Shown piece by piece: positions 9,253-50,228 of a stretch of 64,000 bases of DNA; position 1 is the stretch's first letter, and the number at the start of each line of letters is the position of its first letter. The notes under the pieces are model-generated. The model was not told where the DNA came from and did not search any database. It saw only the letters and a list, made by a program, of their open reading frames with translations. Source of the stretch: Roseibium sp. TrichSKD4 (lineage in GTDB: Bacteria > Pseudomonadota > Alphaproteobacteria > Rhizobiales > Stappiaceae); NCBI RefSeq assembly GCF_000148725.1, contig NZ_GL476319.1, forward strand, positions 701,923 to 765,922, read 5' to 3'. Made by a program: the position numbers and the translations under genes.

Positions 9253-10166
9253 ATGGCCAGCCTTCATCGCGTATTCTTCGTTCTGTCCAGCCTCGCGCTT
9301 ATCGCAGCCCTATTCATGGGCACCCAGCGAAGGCCGACACGCTGACGGAGATCACAAAAGACGCTTGGCTCAAAGCGGCGACCTCCTGGCCAAAAGCAAA
9401 AGACGGCCTGCCGGATGGCAATATTGCCCAAAGGTCAAACGGTGACATAACCGCAGCCTGGTACAGCGCTCCGACGACGAGATACCGTCACGGCGTGATT
9501 GGCGATGCAATTGAAGCCGCTCAACTAAATATCCGCACGCGCAACGGGAAAACTCTCTCCCTCACCCTGCCCCAAACAGAAGTCTTTGAAGACAGAACCC
9601 CTCGCCTTGCAGACCTTGACGGAGATGGCCAAACTGAAGTCATCACCATCCGCTCGTCCAACCGTGGCGGGGGATCAGTTACCCTCTATGCATTGCGAAA
9701 TGGCCAATTGCAGGAAGTCGGTAGCACAGGTTTCATCGGCCGCGCCAACCGCTGGCTCAATATTGCTGGCATAGCCGACTATCTTGGCAACGGTATGCAG
9801 CAAGTCGCCTATGTCGAGATACCGCATATCGGTGGAACCCTTAGGCTTTATGAGTTTAATGACGGCAAGATGCGGCAGGCCTTGTCGAAATTCGGGTTCT
9901 CAAACCACGCTATCGGTTCTCGAAACCTCGGTCTGTCTGCAACAGCAGATATGAATGGCGACGGCACCTTCGACCTTCTCGTTCCAGATACGAGGCGCAG
10001 CACGCTACATGCACTGTCATTCAAGGGCGGCAGCATCCAGCAGCTCGGGAAATTCCGACTTCCTGCCCCGCTGGAAACCGACATACACACAAGCGGATCA
10101 AAGGCCTCCACAACCTTCCTCTTCGGGCTGACAAACGGACGGTACTACGAACTATCGATGCCTTAG
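9253..10166 (+). pseudogene. Exported FG-GAP/VCBS-repeat protein with a frameshift after the signal peptide
   Basis: The ATG at 9253 starts a signal-peptide-like stretch (MASLHRVFFVLSSLALIAAL) that runs into a stop at about 9343-9345. A different frame opens at about 9333 (ADTLTEITKDAWLKAATSWP) and continues to 10166. The two join into one typical exported protein if one base is added or two removed near 9316-9332. The downstream part has FG-GAP-like calcium loops: LADLDGDGQTEVI, IADYLGNGMQQVAYVE and TADMNGDGTFDLLVPD, spaced as beta-propeller blades. Such proteins are usually periplasmic; the function is unknown. Either a sequencing error or a broken gene; a remnant from a start near 9495 would lack export. 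Confidence 0.75.
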
Positions 10167-25905: not shown

Positions 25906-26276
25906 AACGATCTCTTTTATTCTTTTCCCGTTTCCCCAACACTCTCACATACAAATGAAATCTCAAGCCAATTGCCACAACTGTCGACATGTCCACCATT
26001 TCTCGAGCAACCAGCACATTTAAATTTGGTGTGATAAACCTATTCACACTTTAAGTAGCGTTTTTCACGTAGACACCCGCTAGGATGCGGGCGTTGCATC
26101 CACTGTCGGCATAGGCACTTATCGCAACGCAATGTCTTTTTTTTGCGTTGCAAATAAAATTCCATTTGACTCGTTCAATTGAGAAATGAATTATTTCACC
26201 AAGATTAATTAATAAGATCTGCCCGCCGGCAACGGATGACAGCTTGGGATTGGCTGGACGTCTGGGAGGAGTATCC
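25906..26276. other. Divergent intergenic region between ade and the ROK regulator
   Basis: About 370 bases, AT-rich towards the right. It holds promoters for both directions and the inverted repeat at 26124-26151. No gene is seen. Confidence 0.5.
26124..26151. promoter_or_regulatory. Perfect 9-bp inverted repeat, possible operator
   Basis: GCAACGCAA (26124-26132) and TTGCGTTGC (26143-26151) are perfect complements separated by 10 mostly T bases. The spacing suits a dimeric regulator. It could be the site of the neighbouring ROK protein or of an ade regulator; this is inferred from position only. Confidence 0.45.
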
Positions 26277-27566
26277 GTGAAACATACACGGCGAAATGGA
26301 CGAGGATCGAATTCGGCGCAACTGCGCCGTTACAACGAGCGTATCGTATTGCAGTTCCTCAGGAAACTGGGAGAGGCATCCAAGGCAGATTTGGCTCGCG
26401 CAGCCAAACTAACCAACGCAGCGGTCGGAGGTATCATTCAAACACTGGCCGACGAGGGCCTGATTTCAGAAGCCGGCAAACGCCACGATGGCGGACGCGG
26501 CCAACCCGCCACACTTCTCAAACTCGCGCCGCGTGGGGCTTTCGGATTTGGCGTTCGCATTGACCGGACAAATCTGGAAACTGTGCTGATCGACTTCGAA
26601 GGCAAGGTCATTGGCCGGTGCAGCCACGACATGATTCTCCCCGCACCACATCAGACCATGCAGATTATCCGGGATGATCTCGACAATCTGATTAGTTTGC
26701 TCTCGGAGGAAGAGAAGTCCCGCATCACTGGCATTGGATTGGCTCAACCCTTCAACCTCGGGTCATGGTTGCACGAACTGGGTCTGCCGGAAGCAAACTT
26801 CAAGCTGTGGGATGACTTTGACAGCGTTGCGGCCCTTGAAAAAGAGACCGGTTTTGAAGTTTTCCGCGAGAATGATGGCACGGCTGCTGCTGTCGCTGAG
26901 CTCTTTTACGGGCATGGCCGACAACACGACAATTTCCTTTACCTGTTCCTTGGAGCCGCAATCGGTGGCGGCCTTATTCAAAACGGCGATGTGTCTCGGG
27001 GCATGAGCGGCAATGCAGGAGATATCGCGATGATGCCCGTGCCACCTGGACACCTGACGACAACACCAAAGCCAAAAAAAGACTGGGACATTCTTCTAAC
27101 ACGCGCCTCATTGGTGGCTTTGGCAAGACACATCAATCCGAGCGACTTTTCAGCTCTCAGCCGCGCGGACCTGCAAAATGCGGTCGACGAAAACAATCAG
27201 CTGTTTGCCGAATGGCTTGAAGACTGCATCGACGCGCTCAAACCCGCCATTCGATCGGCCTATGCCCTTTTGGACATTCCGGTGGTGATCATTGACAGTG
27301 ACCTGACAGGTGACTTTGCCGATCTTCTCACTAAAGGGTTGGCCGCTGCACTTGAAGACGCAGCGCCGGAAGCCCGCGAAACACCGGAGATCCTGTTCGG
27401 GAACTTTGGACAGGATGCCGGAGCGGTGGGTGCTGCAAGTCTACCACTCTTCTTTAACTTCTCGCCGCGTTCGACCATACTGACCGGGGGAGTATCACAA
27501 GGCTCGGCAGGTGCTGCCATTCATGAGGCCAATGGAGTTGGCCATAGTGCAGCGCTTGCAGTTTGA
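26277..27566 (+). CDS. ROK family transcriptional regulator
   Basis: A 429-residue protein: an N-terminal winged helix-turn-helix (about residues 20-70, NERIVLQFLRKLGEASKADL, then ARAAKLTNAAVGGI) and a ROK sugar-kinase-like domain (ITGIGLAQPFNLG, FRENDGTAAAVAELFYGHG, LFLGAAIGGGLIQNG). The ROK zinc motif CxCGxxGC is not evident. The GTG at 26277 follows GGGAGGAG; upstream codons lack a site. It lies 69 bases before frcB in the same direction, so it most likely controls the frc sugar transporter, as in other alphaproteobacteria. The effector is probably a sugar. Confidence 0.9.
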   Translation: MKHTRRNGRGSNSAQLRRYNERIVLQFLRKLGEASKADLARAAKLTNAAVGGIIQTLADEGLISEAGKRHDGGRGQPATLLKLAPRGAFGFGVRIDRTNLETVLIDFEGKVIGRCSHDMILPAPHQTMQIIRDDLDNLISLLSEEEKSRITGIGLAQPFNLGSWLHELGLPEANFKLWDDFDSVAALEKETGFEVFRENDGTAAAVAELFYGHGRQHDNFLYLFLGAAIGGGLIQNGDVSRGMSGNAGDIAMMPVPPGHLTTTPKPKKDWDILLTRASLVALARHINPSDFSALSRADLQNAVDENNQLFAEWLEDCIDALKPAIRSAYALLDIPVVIIDSDLTGDFADLLTKGLAAALEDAAPEARETPEILFGNFGQDAGAVGAASLPLFFNFSPRSTILTGGVSQGSAGAAIHEANGVGHSAALAV

Positions 27567-41399: not shown

Positions 41400-42998
41400 T
41401 TAGTGATTATGGAGATAATTTCTGGCTGCTTCGTCGAGATAGAGCTTGTTGTTGTTATTGGTGTTGGTCACCATGCCATTGCCGATTTTCTTTGCTTCGG
41501 CTTCAGTGGTGCCCGCATCCAGCTTCACAACAAATGACCCCATGTTGTGACCGGTGTGCGAACCGTTATTGTTGTTGGAGATCAACTTGATGCGGAAGAA
41601 ACCGTTTCCAAGATCTTCAGCAGTGGTTTTTGCCTTATCAAGAGTGTGCGTGTAACCAAGGTCAATAGACCAGTCCTTGGTCAGCGGCTGATTGATATCA
41701 CCGAACGGAAGCGGTGAGTGCAGCAAGTGGTTGATCGACTTCTCACGCTCGGCCTTGGTCATCTTGCCGAAATCTTGACCGGTGGCGCGGACCAATGCTT
41801 CCTGAGTTTGCGGTGTCAGGTTTTCCCAGTCGTTCAGATTGGTCAGCTTGTTGGCGATTTTTGCCTCAAGATCAGCACCTGTCAGGTTCGGGTTGGCAGC
41901 TTTCACCTGAGCAACAGCTTGCTCAATTACCGGCTGAAGTCCGGTGATCGTTGAGCGTCCGGTAATCTGCTTGTCACCAGTTACATGGAACCCGCCATAC
42001 TGACGCTGCGTTGGAGCCAGTGCATTCGGGAACAGATGACGCGCATGAGAGTAGAAGTCATGTCCGGCGCCAACACCGCCTTGCTGAGCGTGGTTATGAC
42101 CAGCATGGTTATGACCTGCGTGTGCGTTGTTGCCAGCCTGCGCATTATGGTTATGACCGGCGTGCGCATTATTCGCACCGTGGTTATGACCTGCATGGGC
42201 ATTGTGATTATGGCCCGCATGATTTGCGTGACCTGCCGGACGGTTTGCCGCAGGCATTGGACGGGCTTGGTGCCCAGCATGATTGTGCGCACCGTGATTG
42301 TGGGCACCATGGTTATGAGCACCGTGATTATGCTGTCCACCTTGCGGAGCAGCAAATGTCGGGCGGTTTCCACCTTGGAACTGCTGAGCAGCAAAGCCAT
42401 TCTGATTGGCCGGAGCACGCAGGAATAGGGCTGGTTGAGTGTTGCCAAAGCCGTATTGAGCGGTACCCGCTCCATTAAAGTTCATGCCGCCAAAGTTGCC
42501 GCCATTCGCAAAACCACCACCGTTCATCGGGAGGTTGATCCGCAACTGCAAACCGTTGTTTTGACCACCAAATTGTCCGTAAGCAGGCTGCATGGCGCCG
42601 CCGCCACCCAAATTTAAGACTTGAGCGAATTGGCCGCCGCCGCCCATGGAACCAGACATTTGGAACAGCATGTTAGAAACTTGACGTAGACCTTGCGAGA
42701 GGCCCTTTAGGCTGAACATGGACCCCATGCCGCCTTGAATGCCAACAAAACCGGCATTCATCAGACCTTCAAGTTGCCCGGCAACGTTTGAAAGCTCACG
42801 CGCAATCTGTGCGATTGGGTTTTGCGCCACATTGGTGCGCGGTTGGAATGCCTGTGCATTGCCAAAGTTTGCAGCTTGCGGAGCGAACTGTGCACCACCG
42901 GCTGCATTGTTAAGCGCCTTGTTGAAGGCCTGACCTTGTGGTCGTTGAGCCTGCATGTTCGTTGCAGGCATTTTATGTACGTGTGTCGGACAAGTCAT
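41400..42998 (-). CDS. Large Gly/Asn/His-rich protein of unknown function
   Basis: A 532-residue protein that I do not recognise. No signal peptide or membrane helix is visible. Residues ~1-220 are rich in Gly, Asn, Gln and Phe (low complexity) with a hydrophobic patch around 55-125. Residues ~221-304 are a His-Asn-Gly-Ala repeat with units like HNHGAH and HAGHNH, a likely metal-binding stretch. From ~310 to the end it looks like a folded domain (HARHLFPNALAPTQRQYGGF, TGADLEAKIANKLTNLNDWE, KDWSIDLGYTHTL, ending LDEAARNYLHNH). The start ATG follows GGGGG. It has its own terminator. It could be a metal buffer or a secreted or surface protein using a non-classical route; both are guesses. Confidence 0.85.
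   Translation of the reverse strand: MTCPTHVHKMPATNMQAQRPQGQAFNKALNNAAGGAQFAPQAANFGNAQAFQPRTNVAQNPIAQIARELSNVAGQLEGLMNAGFVGIQGGMGSMFSLKGLSQGLRQVSNMLFQMSGSMGGGGQFAQVLNLGGGGAMQPAYGQFGGQNNGLQLRINLPMNGGGFANGGNFGGMNFNGAGTAQYGFGNTQPALFLRAPANQNGFAAQQFQGGNRPTFAAPQGGQHNHGAHNHGAHNHGAHNHAGHQARPMPAANRPAGHANHAGHNHNAHAGHNHGANNAHAGHNHNAQAGNNAHAGHNHAGHNHAQQGGVGAGHDFYSHARHLFPNALAPTQRQYGGFHVTGDKQITGRSTITGLQPVIEQAVAQVKAANPNLTGADLEAKIANKLTNLNDWENLTPQTQEALVRATGQDFGKMTKAEREKSINHLLHSPLPFGDINQPLTKDWSIDLGYTHTLDKAKTTAEDLGNGFFRIKLISNNNNGSHTGHNMGSFVVKLDAGTTEAEAKKIGNGMVTNTNNNNKLYLDEAARNYLHNH
42089..42340. repeat. Short degenerate tandem repeats encoding the His-rich tract
   Basis: Plus-strand units such as TGGTTATGACC, TGATTATGG and variants recur at about 12-24 base spacing and encode the HNHGA/HAGHN repeats of the gene at 41400-42998. 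Such tracts often vary in copy number between strains. Confidence 0.75.
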
Positions 42999-44179: not shown

Positions 44180-44764
44180 TCACTTGGCACATTTAGAAGA
44201 GATGGGGCGCCATACTGTTTGCGCGTCCCGAACCTTCACATGTTCCTTGACGAAGGAGTAGACCGCCGGTTCCGTTACATAGTGGCTTGAAGCTGGACGA
44301 ACCAACACCTTTTGATTGACTGTACTAAAGATGGCTGGTTGGCGAACCTTGACCTTGCCAGCCGGTTTCACCAGCACAGTCTCCGCAACGGTCTGGTAAA
44401 CCGCCGGATACTGAACCTTGCACAATATCTTGCGACCTTTGCGCATCTGGTATTCCCATCCTGTTCGGGCAGGTTGCACTATGACCTTGCGATGACGCTT
44501 TTGATAGACCGGAGCCGTCTTGCGATAGGTAATTCGCTCGGGCTGCACCAAAACCCGGCGCTTTTGGTATCCGTAGACTGCAGGTGTTTTGACAAGTCGG
44601 CGTCGCTCCGGCTGCACAAGAACCCGCTTTTGCACCACCTTATATGCGGCTGGAACGACTGCCTGTTCATAACATGACAGAGGCTGTCCACCTGCAAATG
44701 CCTGCGAAACCATGCCTGAACTCAGAACGATGGCGAACCCAATTGATAAAAAGCGAAAACGCAT
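44180..44764 (-). CDS. Exported basic repeat protein of unknown function
   Basis: 194 residues with a signal peptide (MRFRFLSIGFAIVLSSGMVS, cleavage after AFA). The mature protein is made of about six imperfect ~24-residue units of the form P-[AT]-x-[YF]-x(5-9)-[KR]-V-[LI]-V-[QKR]-P-[AE]: for example YKVVQKRVLVQPERRRLVKT, YGYQKRRVLVQPERITYRKT and FSTVNQKVLVRPASSHYVTE. It is very basic, with three Cys. A cell-envelope or polymer-binding role is possible; I recognise no family. Confidence 0.78.
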   Translation of the reverse strand: MRFRFLSIGFAIVLSSGMVSQAFAGGQPLSCYEQAVVPAAYKVVQKRVLVQPERRRLVKTPAVYGYQKRRVLVQPERITYRKTAPVYQKRHRKVIVQPARTGWEYQMRKGRKILCKVQYPAVYQTVAETVLVKPAGKVKVRQPAIFSTVNQKVLVRPASSHYVTEPAVYSFVKEHVKVRDAQTVWRPISSKCAK

Positions 44765-45834: not shown

Positions 45835-46167
45835 CTAGCGCCCGCCGGAATTGAACGCATTCAGCACAGTCAATAGACCTGACAGATTGTCTGCAACGCC
45901 GGTCTGACCAACTTTTTCGGTAGCACCGGCACCAGCCATCGAATCGAGGCTGTAGATTTGCATGACACCCTGGTTGGCAGCAGCTTGAGACAAAGTGTTT
46001 TGCTGCTGTTGTGCCGCTACACCATTTTCAAACAGAATACCGGTTGAATGAGCCATGGACTGATACAGTGTGCTGATCGCCATGGCTGGCGACTCGGCGA
46101 CAACTTTCACATTGGATTGGGTCACAGCATCCGTGATCATCGGGCTGACTGTAGACGGATCGGGCAT
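45835..46167 (-). CDS. RebB family R-body protein, copy 1
   Basis: 110 residues of the RebB (killing trait) family: VSPMITDAVTQSNVKVVAES, AMAISTLYQSMAHSTGILFE, then AAQQQQNTLSQAAANQGVMQIYS. RebB-type proteins assemble into R-bodies, cytosolic ribbon coils that extend on a pH change and can break membranes. It differs from copy 2 (46363-46695) at about 10 positions. The start follows a consensus AAGGAG. It has its own promoter-like element (46222-46246) and terminator, so it is transcribed alone. A glycine-rich C-terminal third (GAGATEKVGQTGVADNL) is shared with copy 2. Confidence 0.93.
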   Translation of the reverse strand: MPDPSTVSPMITDAVTQSNVKVVAESPAMAISTLYQSMAHSTGILFENGVAAQQQQNTLSQAAANQGVMQIYSLDSMAGAGATEKVGQTGVADNLSGLLTVLNAFNSGGR

Positions 46168-46221: not shown

Positions 46222-46246
46222 GACGCAGCCGCCGACGATTTGTGAC
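46222..46246 (-). promoter_or_regulatory. reb promoter element 1 (TGTCACA-N15-CGTC)
   Basis: On the minus strand GTCACA (46246-46241), 15 bases, then CGTC (46225-46222), 55 bases before the rebB copy 1 start. The same elements at the same spacing precede rebB copy 2 and the reb operon. The shape is that of an ECF sigma -35/-10 pair. Confidence 0.8.
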
Positions 46247-46299
46247 AGGAGTGGCTTATCTGGATGGATTCTAGATGAAACAGCGCTGACCAAAAGAAA

Positions 46300-46333
46300 G
46301 GCGCTCCGCTCAGGATCACCGAAGCGAAGCACC
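46300..46333 (-). terminator. Terminator of the second reb unit
   Basis: GGCGCTCCGCT (46300-46310) pairs with AGCGAAGCACC (46323-46333), 11 bp with two wobble pairs in the RNA. The minus strand continues TTTCTTTTGG. It lies 30 bases after rebB copy 2. Confidence 0.75.
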
Positions 46334-46362
46334 AATCAAACGATCCAAAACCAGAAACCAGA

Positions 46363-46695
46363 TTAACGACCGCCGGAGTTGAATGCGTTCAGAACGGTCA
46401 ACAGGCCCGTGAGGTTGTCGGCCACCCCCGTCTGCCCCACCTTTTCAGTCGCACCAGCGCCAGCCATCGTGTCCACGCTGTAAATCTGCATGACGCCCTG
46501 GTTGGCTGCGGCCTGAGCCAGCGTGTTTTGTTGCTGCTGGGCGGCAACGGCATTTTCAAACAAAATGCCAGTCGAATGAGCCATCGACTGATAAATTGTG
46601 CTGAGCGCCATGGCCGGGGACTCACCAACGACCTTCACGTTGGACTGGGTCACGGCATCGGTAATCATCGGGTTCACTGTAGTGGGATCTGGCAT
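46363..46695 (-). CDS. RebB family R-body protein, copy 2
   Basis: 110 residues, about 91 percent identical by eye to copy 1, with the same RebB core (VNPMITDAVTQSNVKVVGES, AMALSTIYQSMAHSTGILFE) and glycine-rich tail ending LNAFNSGGR. Two nearly equal structural subunits are usual in R-body clusters (compare RebA/RebB of Caedibacter). I placed the start at 46695 behind AAGGAG, matching copy 1; the frame is open to 46743. Its promoter element is at 46751-46775 and its terminator at 46300-46333. Confidence 0.93.
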   Translation of the reverse strand: MPDPTTVNPMITDAVTQSNVKVVGESPAMALSTIYQSMAHSTGILFENAVAAQQQQNTLAQAAANQGVMQIYSVDTMAGAGATEKVGQTGVADNLTGLLTVLNAFNSGGR

Positions 46696-46750
46696 CTTGC
46701 GTTCTCCTTGATAGCTGTTTAGCAACCTGCCAACCCTTTGCATTTAGAAG

Positions 46751-46775
46751 GACGCTGCAGCTTGAACTGTGTGAT
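46751..46775 (-). promoter_or_regulatory. reb promoter element 2 (ATCACA-N15-CGTC)
   Basis: On the minus strand ATCACA (46775-46770), 15 bases, CGTC (46754-46751), 56 bases before the rebB copy 2 start. One base differs from the other two -35 elements; the -10 is identical. Confidence 0.78.
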
Positions 46776-46815
46776 GCTAAATATCTATTTTATTTAAGCT
46801 TTTCAAAAAGAAAAA

Positions 46816-46838
46816 CAGCAGGGCTATTTGCCCTGCTG
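46816..46838 (-). terminator. Terminator of the reb operon
   Basis: CAGCAGGGC (46816-46824) pairs with GCCCTGCTG (46830-46838), perfect 9 bp, 5-base loop. On the minus strand TTTTTCTTTTTG follows. The stem overlaps the stop codon of the coiled-coil gene. Confidence 0.9.
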
Positions 46839-47453
46839 CATCATTTTCTCTGCTTGAGCGCGCAGTTGTGAGAGTTGATTTTCCACCTCACGCGCCACCA
46901 TCGACTGAACATTCCCCATGAGCAGGTACAGCTGATAAGCAATTTTTGGATCAGCAATCCCTCCTCCCAAAGAAGAAGCGTTCTGGTTGGATGGGCCAGC
47001 ATTCGGCCTAACATCAGTTCCCTTTGACCCTGACTTCATCAAATCTATCAGGGTATCCTTGTCGTGAAGTGCCGACTTCAAAAGCTCCATATGCTTTTGC
47101 AAGTCTTGCGAAAGAACATCTGCCTTTTCATTGGCTTCTTGCAGGACATTCTCGACGACTTTCATCCCCTCATTCAGGGCTGCGTCACCCTCATTCTTCT
47201 TCTTCAGGATCTGCCCGGCGATCTCCAAAACAGTGGGCAGATTTTGGTAGGTTGATTTGAAGGACTGTTGCAACGAAGCAGTTTTCTGACTGCTCTCCAG
47301 CAAATCCTGCAAGGTAATCGTCGGCGATGTCTTAGCATGTCCACCTGTTGAAGCTGAGCTGGCTGTTTGCGCTGCCGCTCCGGTCTTCCCCGCCGCCTCA
47401 TTCGGGTCGTCGTTTCGTGCGCCTTTTGATGTTTCTTTTTCCGGCTCGTCCAT
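46824..47453 (-). CDS. Reb-cluster coiled-coil protein of unknown function
   Basis: 209 residues. Residues ~1-45 are polar and disordered-looking (Glu/Lys/Ala/Ser/Gly). Residues ~50-135 form long helices with heptad character (LQDLLESSQKTASLQQSFKS, AIL-type spacing in VVENVLQEANEKADVLSQDL). The C-terminal part is DPKIAYQLYLLMGNVQSMVA, then REVENQLSQLRAQAEKMMQ. No catalytic motif. It is the last gene of the reb operon, overlapping the preceding gene by 56 bases. The ATG at 47453 has AAGGAG upstream. It may scaffold or regulate R-body assembly; that is a guess. Confidence 0.82.
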   Translation of the reverse strand: MDEPEKETSKGARNDDPNEAAGKTGAAAQTASSASTGGHAKTSPTITLQDLLESSQKTASLQQSFKSTYQNLPTVLEIAGQILKKKNEGDAALNEGMKVVENVLQEANEKADVLSQDLQKHMELLKSALHDKDTLIDLMKSGSKGTDVRPNAGPSNQNASSLGGGIADPKIAYQLYLLMGNVQSMVAREVENQLSQLRAQAEKMMQQGK

Positions 47454-48000
47454 GACTAGAGATCTCCTTTTCAACTGAGACGTCAACAATTTCCGTTTCG
47501 CCTGCTTCAGAACGCTCAGCGACTTCGGTGATCGAAATGTGGTACCGTTCAGCTTCGCTGGAGCAATCCTTTTCCCGATAGATGCTGTTCCAGTCCCGCT
47601 GCGGAACATCACAGCGGCCGCAGCGCCTTGCCTGCCCTCTTGTTTCTGGCTGGTTTTCCGGTTGAGCGGTTTGGCTCGGCGCCACTTTGCAGGACACTTC
47701 GATCAAAATCGGAAGAACAGTTGCTTCTCCGCTGGTGGTTTCACCACTTTGCGCAATTCGATCCTCCTCACCTGATTGCCGACCTGCCCCGTGCAGAACC
47801 GCACGCGCCCGAACCAGATTGAGCAACAAACCAAGTTTCGTATAACGCTCCTCGCAAACCTTGCGTTCGACGACCTCTTCACTCAGTGTCTCGCCTTCAT
47901 CGCCGATCACACCGCTCTGAGCACTCAGACAGTATTCCTGCGCTGTTTCGAGGATCAGCACATCTAGGTTTTCGCAAATCGAGCTGAGGGTTTGGGGCAT
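47398..48000 (-). CDS. Reb-cluster protein of unknown function, Glu-rich with Cys pairs
   Basis: 200 residues, not recognised. The N-terminal ~95 residues look helical (LSSICENLDVLILETAQEYC and YTKLGLLLNLVRARAVLHGA). The middle is Ser/Gly/Glu-rich. A CGRC motif (RRCGRCDVPQRDW) could bind metal or form a disulfide. The tail is Glu-rich and then very basic (KRNIKRRTKRRPE). AAGGATCATCACC precedes the ATG. The 56-base overlap with the coiled-coil gene suggests coupled translation; the extreme tail might have little selection of its own. Confidence 0.72.
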   Translation of the reverse strand: MPQTLSSICENLDVLILETAQEYCLSAQSGVIGDEGETLSEEVVERKVCEERYTKLGLLLNLVRARAVLHGAGRQSGEEDRIAQSGETTSGEATVLPILIEVSCKVAPSQTAQPENQPETRGQARRCGRCDVPQRDWNSIYREKDCSSEAERYHISITEVAERSEAGETEIVDVSVEKEISSHGRAGKRNIKRRTKRRPE

Positions 48001-48135
48001 GGTGATGATCCTTCAAGAGGTTTTGAAACTTGAGTAGGCAGAGGCATTTGCAAAAGCGGATTGCCTTTGCATCTTCGCGGCCCTTGATCGCCTGTTTTCT
48101 TTGCGCCGCCTGATGCAACGCGCCTTATTCAAAGA

Positions 48136-48324
48136 TCAGCGGTTGCCAGCAATCCGCCGAATTTCTTCGTTCAGAATATTCTGATCCCGCTGTGGCAGGT
48201 CATCGACCGCTTCTTTCAAAGTGCGTTTCCGCTTCTTTTCAGGAAGGCTTTTGAACGGTGCCAAAATATCCGTGGCGTCTCCTGAGGCGGTATGATCCCC
48301 CGAAGCACTATCTTTGTTCGCCAT
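48136..48324 (-). CDS. Small reb-cluster protein of unknown function
   Basis: 62 residues: a polar N-terminus (MANKDSASGDHTASGDATDI) and a basic helical C-terminus (LPEKKRKRTLKEAVDDLPQR, then NILNEEIRRIAGNR). GGGAG precedes the ATG. It lies 25 bases after the RebB-like gene in the same direction. Size, strand and spacing argue that it is real; the role is unknown. Confidence 0.72.
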   Translation of the reverse strand: MANKDSASGDHTASGDATDILAPFKSLPEKKRKRTLKEAVDDLPQRDQNILNEEIRRIAGNR

Positions 48325-48349
48325 CAGCCCAGCTCCCTGCTCTACCCCC

Positions 48350-48901
48350 TCAGGATTTCAGATCGGAAAATATGGTTTTGGATGACGTCCCAGCCGTCTC
48401 ACTAACCGAGCCATATACTTTGACCGCATGATCCACGATGCCCTGAATCTGCGAAAGAAAGGGAATTTGCTCCGCCTCCTGGATAGGACCTTCGGCGGCC
48501 TTCTTGATGGCAACAGCCTGCGCGGCAACAGCGATCTGCATGATTGCGTTCATGTAGTTCTGCGCATCTTGAACCGCGAGAGCCGTAACCTGCCCAACCA
48601 TCATTTCCGGCGGGCTCGTGGCCAGTTCCTGATTGTAACTCGCAGTCTCCGTGTTGCTCATCTGAACAGACTGCACGATCTTTGGATTCAAGGCAGATGT
48701 GTCTGGCGCAGGTTTCACAGGCTGCGTTTGTGGCGTTTTCGCGGATGCTGGTCCATCACTTCCAGCCTTGTGCGCAGCTGACTGTTGCGCCCCGGCCTTT
48801 GGCTTGAGCCGCCCGGAAGCATCACGAGACAAGGTTGGATCCCCTTTAGGTGCAGCACCGCTATCCTCGCTGGATTTGTTGGCGCGTTTAAACAGTCCCA
48901 T
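48350..48901 (-). CDS. RebB-like protein with N-terminal disordered extension
   Basis: 183 residues. Residues ~1-70 are Ser/Ala/Pro/Lys-rich and look disordered. From ~71 on, LNPKIVQSVQMSNTETASYN and PPEMMVGQVTALAVQDAQNY follow the RebB plan (NP-I-x3-V-x2-SN, then SP-x2-M), and AIMQIAVAAQAVAIKKAAEG replaces the usual QQQ-rich helix. It is a divergent RebB relative or adaptor. GGGAGGTTCGAA precedes the ATG. It sits second in the reb operon. Confidence 0.77.
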   Translation of the reverse strand: MGLFKRANKSSEDSGAAPKGDPTLSRDASGRLKPKAGAQQSAAHKAGSDGPASAKTPQTQPVKPAPDTSALNPKIVQSVQMSNTETASYNQELATSPPEMMVGQVTALAVQDAQNYMNAIMQIAVAAQAVAIKKAAEGPIQEAEQIPFLSQIQGIVDHAVKVYGSVSETAGTSSKTIFSDLKS

Positions 48902-48921
48902 TTCGAACCTCCCGCCTTACG

Positions 48922-49152
48922 TTACTTGCTTTCGCCAATATCCATGATCAATTGGCATGTCTTGGACACAACTGCAGTTGTGACCTGATTCATTGCCTGC
49001 TGACTGTGCACCGCATTTTGAATGGAAAGACCTGAGGCATGGCTGGCCACCTGATATAGACTGGCAATCACCTGAGCCGGTGCTTCAGCAACAACTTTCA
49101 CATTTGTTTGGGTCACAGCGTCTGTGACTTGGGCATTCACTGCATCAGCCAT
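48922..49152 (-). CDS. Short RebB family R-body protein
   Basis: 76 residues containing only the RebB core: VNAQVTDAVTQTNVKVVAEA, PAQVIASLYQVASHASGLSI, QNAVHSQQAMNQVTTAVVSK. It lacks the glycine-rich tail of copies 1 and 2. AAAGGAATGG precedes the ATG. It is the first gene of the reb operon, with the shared promoter element 77 bases upstream. It may be a minor subunit or nucleator. Confidence 0.9.
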   Translation of the reverse strand: MADAVNAQVTDAVTQTNVKVVAEAPAQVIASLYQVASHASGLSIQNAVHSQQAMNQVTTAVVSKTCQLIMDIGESK

Positions 49153-49228
49153 TGTTTTTCCATTCCTTTAGTGTTGGGGGCAGCGCCGATTAGTGCAGCC
49201 GAATTACGTTGCAGGAGGCATATGAATG

Positions 49229-49253
49229 GACGCCCTAAAACCCCACTTGTGAC
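49229..49253 (-). promoter_or_regulatory. reb promoter element 3 (TGTCACA-N15-CGTC), reb operon
   Basis: On the minus strand GTCACA (49253-49248), 15 bases, CGTC (49232-49229). The -35 part lies inside the last codons of the sigma factor gene. It should drive the five genes from 49152 to the terminator at 46816-46838. Confidence 0.8.
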
Positions 49254-49843
49254 AACTGTGGACGCGCTCTAACGCCCATCTCTGCCTCGCGCTCCAAAAC
49301 GGATTTCAAGTGTTGTCTCAAATGCTGGACCCGCTTGCGCGCCAATGCCTCGGATATACTCAATCGACTTGCAATTTCCCGGTAGGAACAATCCTCACAG
49401 AACCGCAAATGAAAGATCGCCTGAACGTCGTCGGGCATTCCAGACACCAGCTTGAGCAAGTGTTTCAGGCGGTCCCTGTTTCCAAGCACGTCTTCCTGAT
49501 CCGGTTCCGGGGCCATCAAAGAGGCAGAATGATCCTGGTAGATATCGGCTCTAAAATCCCGCACCTGCCGCTCACATGTTAATTTCCGAAATCGGCTAAT
49601 ATATTCATTTTTCAGCGCAAAGAGCAGAAAGGCTCGCGGCTCTCGAACTTCTGTGTCGTGGCGTTCGACATGCGTGACAGCCTTGGTAAGGGTCGCAGAC
49701 TGAAGATCCTCCGCCTCCTCTCGATTGCCTTTCGTCAAACGGAGCGCACGGCGACGCAAAACAGCGCCATCTTCAATCCAGCTCATCCAGAGGCCGACTG
49801 ACGGCATGGCCATATATTGCTTGATCGCCTTCTCCTCAGACAC
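49235..49843 (-). CDS. ECF-like sigma-70 family RNA polymerase sigma factor
   Basis: 202 residues. Region 2 spans about residues 20-95 (LRRRALRLTKGNREEAEDLQ, AFLLFALKNEYISRFRKLTC). Region 4 spans about 130-180 (MPDDVQAIFHLRFCEDCSYR, then EIASRLSISEALARKRVQHL). Region 3 is absent, as in ECF factors. No anti-sigma gene is adjacent. The GTG at 49843 has GGGAGG 6 bases upstream; an earlier start to 49900 lacks this. It stands directly upstream of the reb genes, all of which carry the same promoter element, so it is probably their dedicated sigma factor. From memory, an ECF (FecI2) is linked to reb in Pseudomonas aeruginosa too. Confidence 0.9.
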   Translation of the reverse strand: MSEEKAIKQYMAMPSVGLWMSWIEDGAVLRRRALRLTKGNREEAEDLQSATLTKAVTHVERHDTEVREPRAFLLFALKNEYISRFRKLTCERQVRDFRADIYQDHSASLMAPEPDQEDVLGNRDRLKHLLKLVSGMPDDVQAIFHLRFCEDCSYREIASRLSISEALARKRVQHLRQHLKSVLEREAEMGVRARPQLSQVGF

Positions 49844-50228
49844 CGCTCGCCTCCCAGTCCCATCTTGCCCGCACCTGCTTGTTAACCAAGAAGACGTCAA
49901 AAAATGTAATATGAAAATTTTCCCTTTTTGGTTGTGTTTTTATTCGCCAGAAAACTTCACAAGAGATTTTGATCTAAGGCCAAAGAGAAGAAAAACCCTT
50001 ATTTAAGAGGCAGTTACAGGACATGCCTGTACATGTGGCGATGACCTAAAAAGATCAAAACAAGAACATTCTAACCGGAAGTCAGGCTCTCCTAACCCCC
50101 CGAGAAATCAGGGAATAGCAGCACCTTCAGACAACATTTTCGGTCCTAAAAACCGCCTGTCATTTAGTTTTTAGAGAAACAAGAAAAGGTTCGGGATCCG
50201 GATAACAATCAGCCCTAGGTGACTGACT
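49844..50228. other. Intergenic region upstream of the sigma factor gene
   Basis: 385 bases, AT-rich. A CGTCTTC resembling the reb -10 occurs at about 49906-49912 on the minus strand, but the -35 match is poor (TTTTCA). No gene is seen. Confidence 0.5.

Follow-up and report, generated by a model that had tools for sequence, protein, structure and literature searches.

The reb locus and its candidate promoter element

We analysed 64,000 nucleotides of the Roseibium sp. TrichSKD4 genome (contig NZ_GL476319.1, positions 701,923 to 765,922; hereafter the window), whose minus strand carries three reb units next to a gene for a sigma factor of the extracytoplasmic function (ECF) type, and we focus here on a two-part element, RTCACA-N15-CGTC (R, A or G), that precedes each of these units and appears to be the promoter read by the adjacent sigma factor (Table 1). 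An earlier interpretation of the letters alone, the sequence-only reading, had placed three copies of the element on the minus strand; these are indeed the sole matches in the 64 kb, exactly one upstream of each reb unit, against a chance expectation of 0.34 (mean of 100 shuffles, none of which reached three). The longer form TGTCACA in two of the three copies and the G preceding CGTC in all three were likewise confirmed, and the distances of 55, 56 and 77 bases to the start codons agree with reb starts at 46167, 46695 and 49152. The first-operon copy lies partly within the 3′ end of the sigma gene. A further match to the position weight matrix (PWM) of the element, at 26257-26281 (score 15.8), was rejected as chance, since the next gene start on the same strand lies about 350 bases away and the site overlies an opposite open reading frame (ORF).

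Table 1. Elements and genes of the reb locus, in window coordinates
Feature	Coordinates	Strand	Remarks
Promoter element GTCACA-N15-CGTC, first reb operon	49229..49253	minus	GTCACAAGTGGGGTTTTAGGGCGTC; PWM score 19.7
Promoter element ATCACA-N15-CGTC, second reb unit	46751..46775	minus	ATCACACAGTTCAAGCTGCAGCGTC; PWM score 19.0
Promoter element GTCACA-N15-CGTC, third reb unit	46222..46246	minus	GTCACAAATCGTCGGCGGCTGCGTC; PWM score 17.2
Degenerate element TTTTCA-N15-CGTC, upstream of sigma gene	49893..49917	minus	score 3.1
ECF-type sigma factor gene	49235..49900	minus	regions 2 and 4 only; ORF opens at TTG 49900
Reb protein, 76 aa	48922..49152	minus	PF11747, E 6e-25; first gene after sigma
Hypothetical protein, 183 aa	48350..48901	minus	no Pfam match; presumably in operon of 76-aa Reb
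Hypothetical protein, 62 aa	48136..48324	minus	no Pfam match; presumably in operon of 76-aa Reb
Hypothetical protein, 200 aa	47398..48000	minus	no Pfam match; presumably in operon of 76-aa Reb
Hypothetical ORF, at most 262 aa	46824..47612	minus	last of first reb operon; start uncertain
Terminator-like hairpin and T tract	46815..46839	minus	10 pairs; between end of first operon and second reb promoter
Reb protein, 110 aa	46363..46695	minus	PF11747, E 3e-28; second reb unit
Reb protein, 110 aa	45835..46167	minus	PF11747, E 7e-27; third reb unit

All three window Reb proteins match the RebB family (PF11747) at 87-98 bits, against a cut-off of 24. The sigma factor, whose true start is probably GTG 49843, matches Sigma70_r2 and Sigma70_r4_2 above the Pfam cut-offs with no region 3 match, and scores 55.7 bits against TIGR02937 (sigma70-ECF; cut-off 42.9). 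The last ORF of the first operon has a single Pfam match, below that database's cut-off, and a Pfam scan of eight cluster proteins gave no match to an anti-sigma family. The hairpin that follows the first operon suggests that the three reb units are, at least in part, separate transcription units; the hairpin scan overall returned 6 hairpins vs 5.4 in shuffled sequence, i.e., no excess.

Conservation of the element upstream of reb genes

A single search, using one of the Reb proteins of the window as query, supplied the comparison set: the best 80 of 155 relatives defined 79 loci; together with a Ruegeria locus, a Burkholderia locus and the window these make up 82 reb loci, with 241 reb genes of assigned start (three of 244 Reb ORFs, whose start was not assignable, were dropped). 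Within the 160 bases before these genes, we counted TCACA-Nk-CGTC at every k between 8 and 23: there are 66 occurrences at k = 15 (63 without the window) and three at all other spacings combined (two at k = 16, one at k = 9, none at the remaining 13 values). The element is by no means confined to the window locus. An open search of two-part words also ranks the TCACA/CGTC pair first, with 49 of 190 non-redundant upstream regions vs 25 of 3800 control stretches, which may themselves overlap real sites.

In loci whose sigma factor is a close homolog of the window's, the 33 strict sites left after removal of redundancy mostly read (T/G)TCACA, then (G/A)CGTC, then mostly (C/T)(T/A)(T/A), with TCACG variants of the putative -35 present as well. 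As the sequence-only reading had remarked for the window, the intervening bases are unrelated: spacer columns carry at most 0.3 bits, except for the base just 5′ of CGTC, which is G or A and reaches 1.2 bits. The usual form outside the window is TTCACR-N14-RCGTC-YWW (Y, C or T; W, A or T).

Association with the adjacent sigma factor

A homolog of the window sigma factor was detected in 66 of the 82 reb loci, and in every one of these TCAC-N16-CGTY precedes a reb gene, for close (31/31) and distant (35/35) sigma factors alike. Among the 16 sigma-less loci, the ten with 4 kb or more of DNA on the upstream side all lack the element; the remaining six carry it, on contigs that stop within 2.6 kb upstream of their first reb gene, where a sigma gene may have been cut off. 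A whole-genome search of nine of the ten sigma-less genomes (all but that of L055) with a sigma profile of 19 rows found no such sigma factor, the best score being 66 bits vs 228-248 bits in three positive genomes; in eight of the nine, other proteins match the profile weakly. The strict element also lies upstream of the sigma gene itself in 17 of the 66 loci, all 17 within the 31 close-sigma loci. In a sigma-less Xanthomonas locus (L053), a remnant one base off the pattern (-35 TCCACA, with CGTT) stands upstream of the reb gene at 9991, as expected for promoter decay after sigma loss.

The putative -10 reads CGTC in the alphaproteobacteria and part of the betaproteobacteria, and CGTT in most gammaproteobacteria and the other betaproteobacteria. 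On the sigma tree this C/T difference takes 2 changes over 60 rows, against a shuffled mean of 16.9, with none of 500 shuffles as low; the two-state count omits five mixed rows (L034, L036, L038, L002 and L058), and L067 is absent from the tree. In L034, L036 and L038 we read the extra match behind the mixed score as coding sequence, belonging to the end of the reb gene that comes before. Within the Lysobacteraceae, three members with an alpha-type sigma factor use CGTC and 16 with a second sigma type use CGTT. An alignment of 19 of the 66 sigma rows (47 left out), 26-65% identical to the window copy (nearest among those compared, Roseibium sediminis, 65%, which makes a host in the Stappiaceae probable), has ten invariant columns, six of them in region 4; these include L-x-R-K-R, consistent with the invariant TCAC of the -35. 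Many sigma columns track the -10 base, but as it changes just twice on the tree no single residue can be named as setting it.

The distribution over loci (66/66 vs 0/10), the -10 variant that follows the sigma clade and the conservation of region 4 give strong comparative support to the proposal of the sequence-only reading that the element is a recognition site for the adjacent ECF sigma factor.

Candidate targets outside the reb clusters

The regulon was sought in genomes of relatives of the window strain. In 14 sigma-bearing alphaproteobacterial genomes KTCACA-N14-RCGTC (K, G or T) gave 99 matches, 30 taken as lying in reb clusters and 69 outside, compared with 87 for the reversed pattern and 88 for the N13 control. 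Many single matches outside the clusters must therefore be chance, and since the pattern alone defines no regulon there, we relied on recurrence of downstream families, distance to the start codon and spacer specificity. The refutation by random matches that the sequence-only reading had put forward fails for DNA upstream of reb; across these 14 whole genomes, however, the strict pattern is hardly commoner than its controls.

At 21 of the 69 outside sites the downstream ORF is homologous to another listed one (20 pairs), vs 4 of 88 (2 pairs) when the spacer is one shorter; without the pair L124/L147 the figure is 19 of 67. That pair and a recurrent dnaG-like triple (L310/L314/L316) were set aside, as they resemble conserved coding sequence or neutral conservation. 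YWW directly follows CGTC at 18 of the 69 sites vs 4 of the 88 short-spacer sites.

The search for homologs of the targets extended over 61 genomes, of which 52 have the sigma factor and nine lack it (14 of the 66 sigma loci lie outside the genomes searched). In a close subfamily of GH25 muramidases all eight genes carry the element, seven at -44 to -57 and one at -158, vs none of 22 other GH25 genes, 19 of them from sigma-bearing genomes (14 of 44 rows, without a locus, were left out). The enzyme domain of the element-bearing proteins begins after about 10 residues, with no hydrophobic leader (the start of L196 is unsure), while by simple hydropathy with guessed starts a hydrophobic N terminus is present in 14 of the 22 others and absent in eight. 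The F5 family (~330 residues), found in 16 genomes, every one sigma-bearing, has the element at most 300 bases upstream of 17 of 23 genes at spacer 16 (TCAC to CGTY), compared with five matches at sixteen wrong spacers combined; five of 28 rows, fragments without an N terminus, are omitted from this count. All five close homologs of F2 (~106 residues), four of them found through the pattern, and neither of two distant ones bear the element, and in F1 (~186 residues) it precedes three of five single genes and the first gene of two tandem pairs. Comparison thus places what appears to be the same promoter before unlinked families in sigma-bearing relatives.

Pfam assigns GH25 and a staphylococcal-nuclease type protein among the targets; the latter has a strict site 116-137 bases before the gene in four genomes (L092, L118, L125 and L142), a distance exceeding that of the other targets. 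Pfam and PHROGs gave no match for F1, F2, F3, F5 and F6, and the PDB nothing useful for F1, F2 and F5. Judged by eye, the recurrent target proteins are mostly without an obvious leader, the nuclease type having one. In two Pannonibacter genomes (G014 and G017; L159, L160, L163, L164, L175 and L176), a tandem pair of F1 genes and, on the opposite strand, an F5 gene are grouped within ~3.5 kb, forming a small island of possible targets distant from reb. Another site, TCACACTTGCGAATC-N5-CGTC, starts with the same 15 bases in five of eight genomes (L151-L155), with no ORF found downstream and no Rfam match for the two copies searched; it may represent an RNA or a conserved regulatory site.

In 20 beta- and gammaproteobacterial genomes with a CGTT-type sigma factor, TTCACA-N15-CGTTYW gave 60 matches vs 8 with the spacer one shorter; in the nine sigma-less genomes the corresponding counts are 5 and 11, with 10 for the reversed pattern. 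Twenty of the 60 were taken as reb-cluster sites, and the 40 others were fetched for their downstream genes. Sites precede two F5 homologs in Xanthomonas, Crp/Fnr genes adjoining reb in two genomes, and a small unknown protein pair. Weak single cases are a member of the endonuclease/exonuclease/phosphatase family, a ribonuclease that on inspection by eye has a hydrophobic leader, a glucanase of family GH64 and a protein weakly matching phosphatidylinositol phospholipase C (E 4e-7 over ~65 residues); several other sites look like chance.

Alternative explanations

We consider it very probable that the element is a promoter read by the adjacent ECF sigma factor (gene at 49235-49900), which would drive the reb units together with scattered genes; the element itself, its spacing, its link to the sigma factor and its presence before unlinked families all emerge from comparison among genomes. 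Besides the near-control counts in the alphaproteobacterial genomes, several observations weigh against this explanation. The window's own copy upstream of the sigma gene is degenerate, where many sister loci keep an intact one. The reb clusters travel whole, and the -10 and the sigma factor are thus linked by descent as well as by function. F5 occurs in 16 of 52 sigma-bearing vs 0 of 9 sigma-less genomes, a difference that is not significant (p 0.10), and the other two single F1 genes carry the element with spacer 17 instead of 16. The target families were first chosen through members having the site, and near-relatives are not independent; without the pattern-found members the counts are 6/6 for GH25, 1/1 for F2 and 13/19 for F5. 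A search of the window for homologs of F1, F2, F4 and F5 found none. Finally, in the 20 beta- and gammaproteobacterial genomes the reversed pattern gives 31 matches (vs 60).

The alternative that best survives, and one we regard as unlikely, is that the sigma factor governs the reb cluster alone, the unlinked sites being chance occurrences or sites of some other regulator. It gains from the alphaproteobacterial raw counts, which outside the clusters do not exceed the controls, and from ECF41 sigma factors, which are reported to control just a neighbouring target (PMC3426412). Set against it are the spacer-specific conservation in unlinked families (F5, 17/23 vs 5 over 16 wrong spacings; GH25, 8/8 vs 0/22), the excess of YWW after CGTC and the count of 60 matches in 20 sigma-bearing beta- and gammaproteobacterial genomes, 20 of these matches taken as reb-cluster sites, vs 5 in the nine sigma-less genomes.

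Very unlikely, in our estimation, is an element that is no sigma promoter at all and instead serves as the operator of an activator that binds DNA; an example is RebR, a Crp/Fnr-type regulator known from the vicinity of reb genes, which activates reb in Azorhizobium (PMC5527310). A Crp/Fnr gene is present in 33 of the 82 reb loci, but none lies in the fetched stretch of 35 of the 66 loci that have both sigma factor and element; moreover, the element is asymmetric, whereas the RebR site is the palindrome GTRMC-N4-GKYAC (PMC5527310), and published work likens a CGTC -10 to those of many ECF promoters (PMC3426412). Least likely of all is that another ECF sigma factor of the cell, such as an ECF41 protein, reads the promoter while the neighbour is incidental: ECF41 promoters are nearly identical (TGTCACA-N16-CGTC; PMC3426412) and the genomes contain further ECF-like sigma genes, but the element goes with this sigma factor across loci, though eight of nine sigma-less genomes have weak profile matches, and the -10 variant tracks its clade.

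Relation to known systems

By its domain content, the window protein is an ECF (group IV) sigma factor outside ECF41, with an ECF41-like promoter. The resemblance to ECF41 promoters that the sequence-only reading had noted is borne out by the published TGTCACA-N16-CGTC with a spacer of 16 ± 1 (Wecke et al. 2012, PMC3426412): TGTCACA occurs in two of the three window sites and their spacing of 15 falls within range, most relatives having TTCACR. Its remark that the protein lacks the fused C-terminal domain of ECF41 also holds, as the chain ends ~23 residues past region 4 with no further Pfam domain, and Pfam finds no COE gene match among the seven genes downstream of sigma (reb and hypothetical). 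The two systems have in common a local target beside the sigma gene and resemble each other in promoter motifs (CGTC throughout the window sites, TGTCACA in two of the three), and they differ in the domain after region 4, in the neighbours (reb here, COE there), and in the usual -35 TTCACR, the spacer of 15 and the scattered targets seen here (PMC3426412).

In Pseudomonas aeruginosa PA14, reb expression depends on FecI2 (FecI2/RcgA), a sigma factor whose gene is part of the reb cluster (PMC8322103), a likeness to the arrangement proposed here. Two other Pseudomonas loci (L069 and L078, not PA14) have a distant sigma relative at 39-41 bits and lack TCAC-N16-CGTY before reb; the sigma group is not shared. 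Two papers of 2013 had already pointed to sigma genes close to reb: the synteny of Reb Group 2 includes sigma HP2.3 and regulator HP2.4 (PMC3583457), and in Labrenzia alexandrii, whose strain DFL-11 is reported to make R-bodies, an ECF sigma gene adjoins reb (PMC3764935). Both represent the same type of neighbourhood, with a regulatory role suggested. In the available parts of both papers we found no promoter element or regulon, and the word promoter is absent from the main text of PMC3583457 and PMC13430693. Within the full-text literature searched, a scope outside which most subscription journals lie, the promoter and regulon are unreported; relative to the sequence-only reading, the usual consensus, the sigma-gene copies and the unlinked targets are new.

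A proposed sigma-dependent R-body regulon

We propose a regulon that would make the R-body ribbon together with an enzyme that cuts the cell wall and with proteins that are candidate payloads. The promoter would consist of a -35 TTCACR (GTCACA or ATCACA in the window) and a -10 CGTC placed 15 bases past TCACA; we infer that the sigma factor binds it and that RNA polymerase carrying this sigma initiates just past CGTC, which would switch the three reb units on together. In many sister loci (17/31) the sigma gene would also activate itself. In sigma-bearing relatives the same cells would express the leaderless GH25 muramidase and several uncharacterised families, with nucleases, a phospholipase-like protein and a glucanase as further targets, each a single prediction. 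The most likely purpose is that cytoplasmic proteins made together with the ribbon are retained until the cell is breached, by the ribbon or by lysis: a GH25 muramidase kept in the cytoplasm requires something to release it, and R-body extension would break the envelope and free the muramidase along with the other proteins, some of which may act as payloads.

HrpL of Pseudomonas syringae is an ECF sigma factor whose regulon includes scattered effectors. The present case resembles it as an alternative sigma factor for a delivery machine (PMC4149516), and differs in that the R-body machine works without a secretion system and from a different promoter; homology is not claimed.

More tentatively, and as a possibility that we would not favour over its negation, one ECF sigma factor might run a self-contained R-body weapon programme of ribbon, GH25 endolysin and genome-specific payloads, its promoter, rather than the gene neighbourhood, marking the long-sought R-body toxins. 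The muramidase would then act as an endolysin after the ribbon, in the holin's place, has breached the membrane, and the payloads would comprise F1, F2, F3, F5 and F6 and the beta- and gammaproteobacterial nuclease-, phospholipase- and glucanase-like proteins. The killing agent that R-body producers release is still described as an unknown toxin (PMC5773718, PMC3764935), and a searchable promoter could yield a list of candidate R-body toxin genes to test. It would likewise offer an R-body control circuit that can be tested in Alpha-, Beta- and Gammaproteobacteria, and a pairing of sigma factor and promoter in which the -10 varies by clade.

Other features of the window

Two further minus-strand ORFs of the window have a repetitive composition. 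A 532-residue ORF (41400-42998) contains a long histidine-rich repeat region of the HAGHNHGAHNH type, perhaps metal-binding, and a 194-residue ORF (44180-44764) is built of VLVQPER...TPAVY-type repeats.

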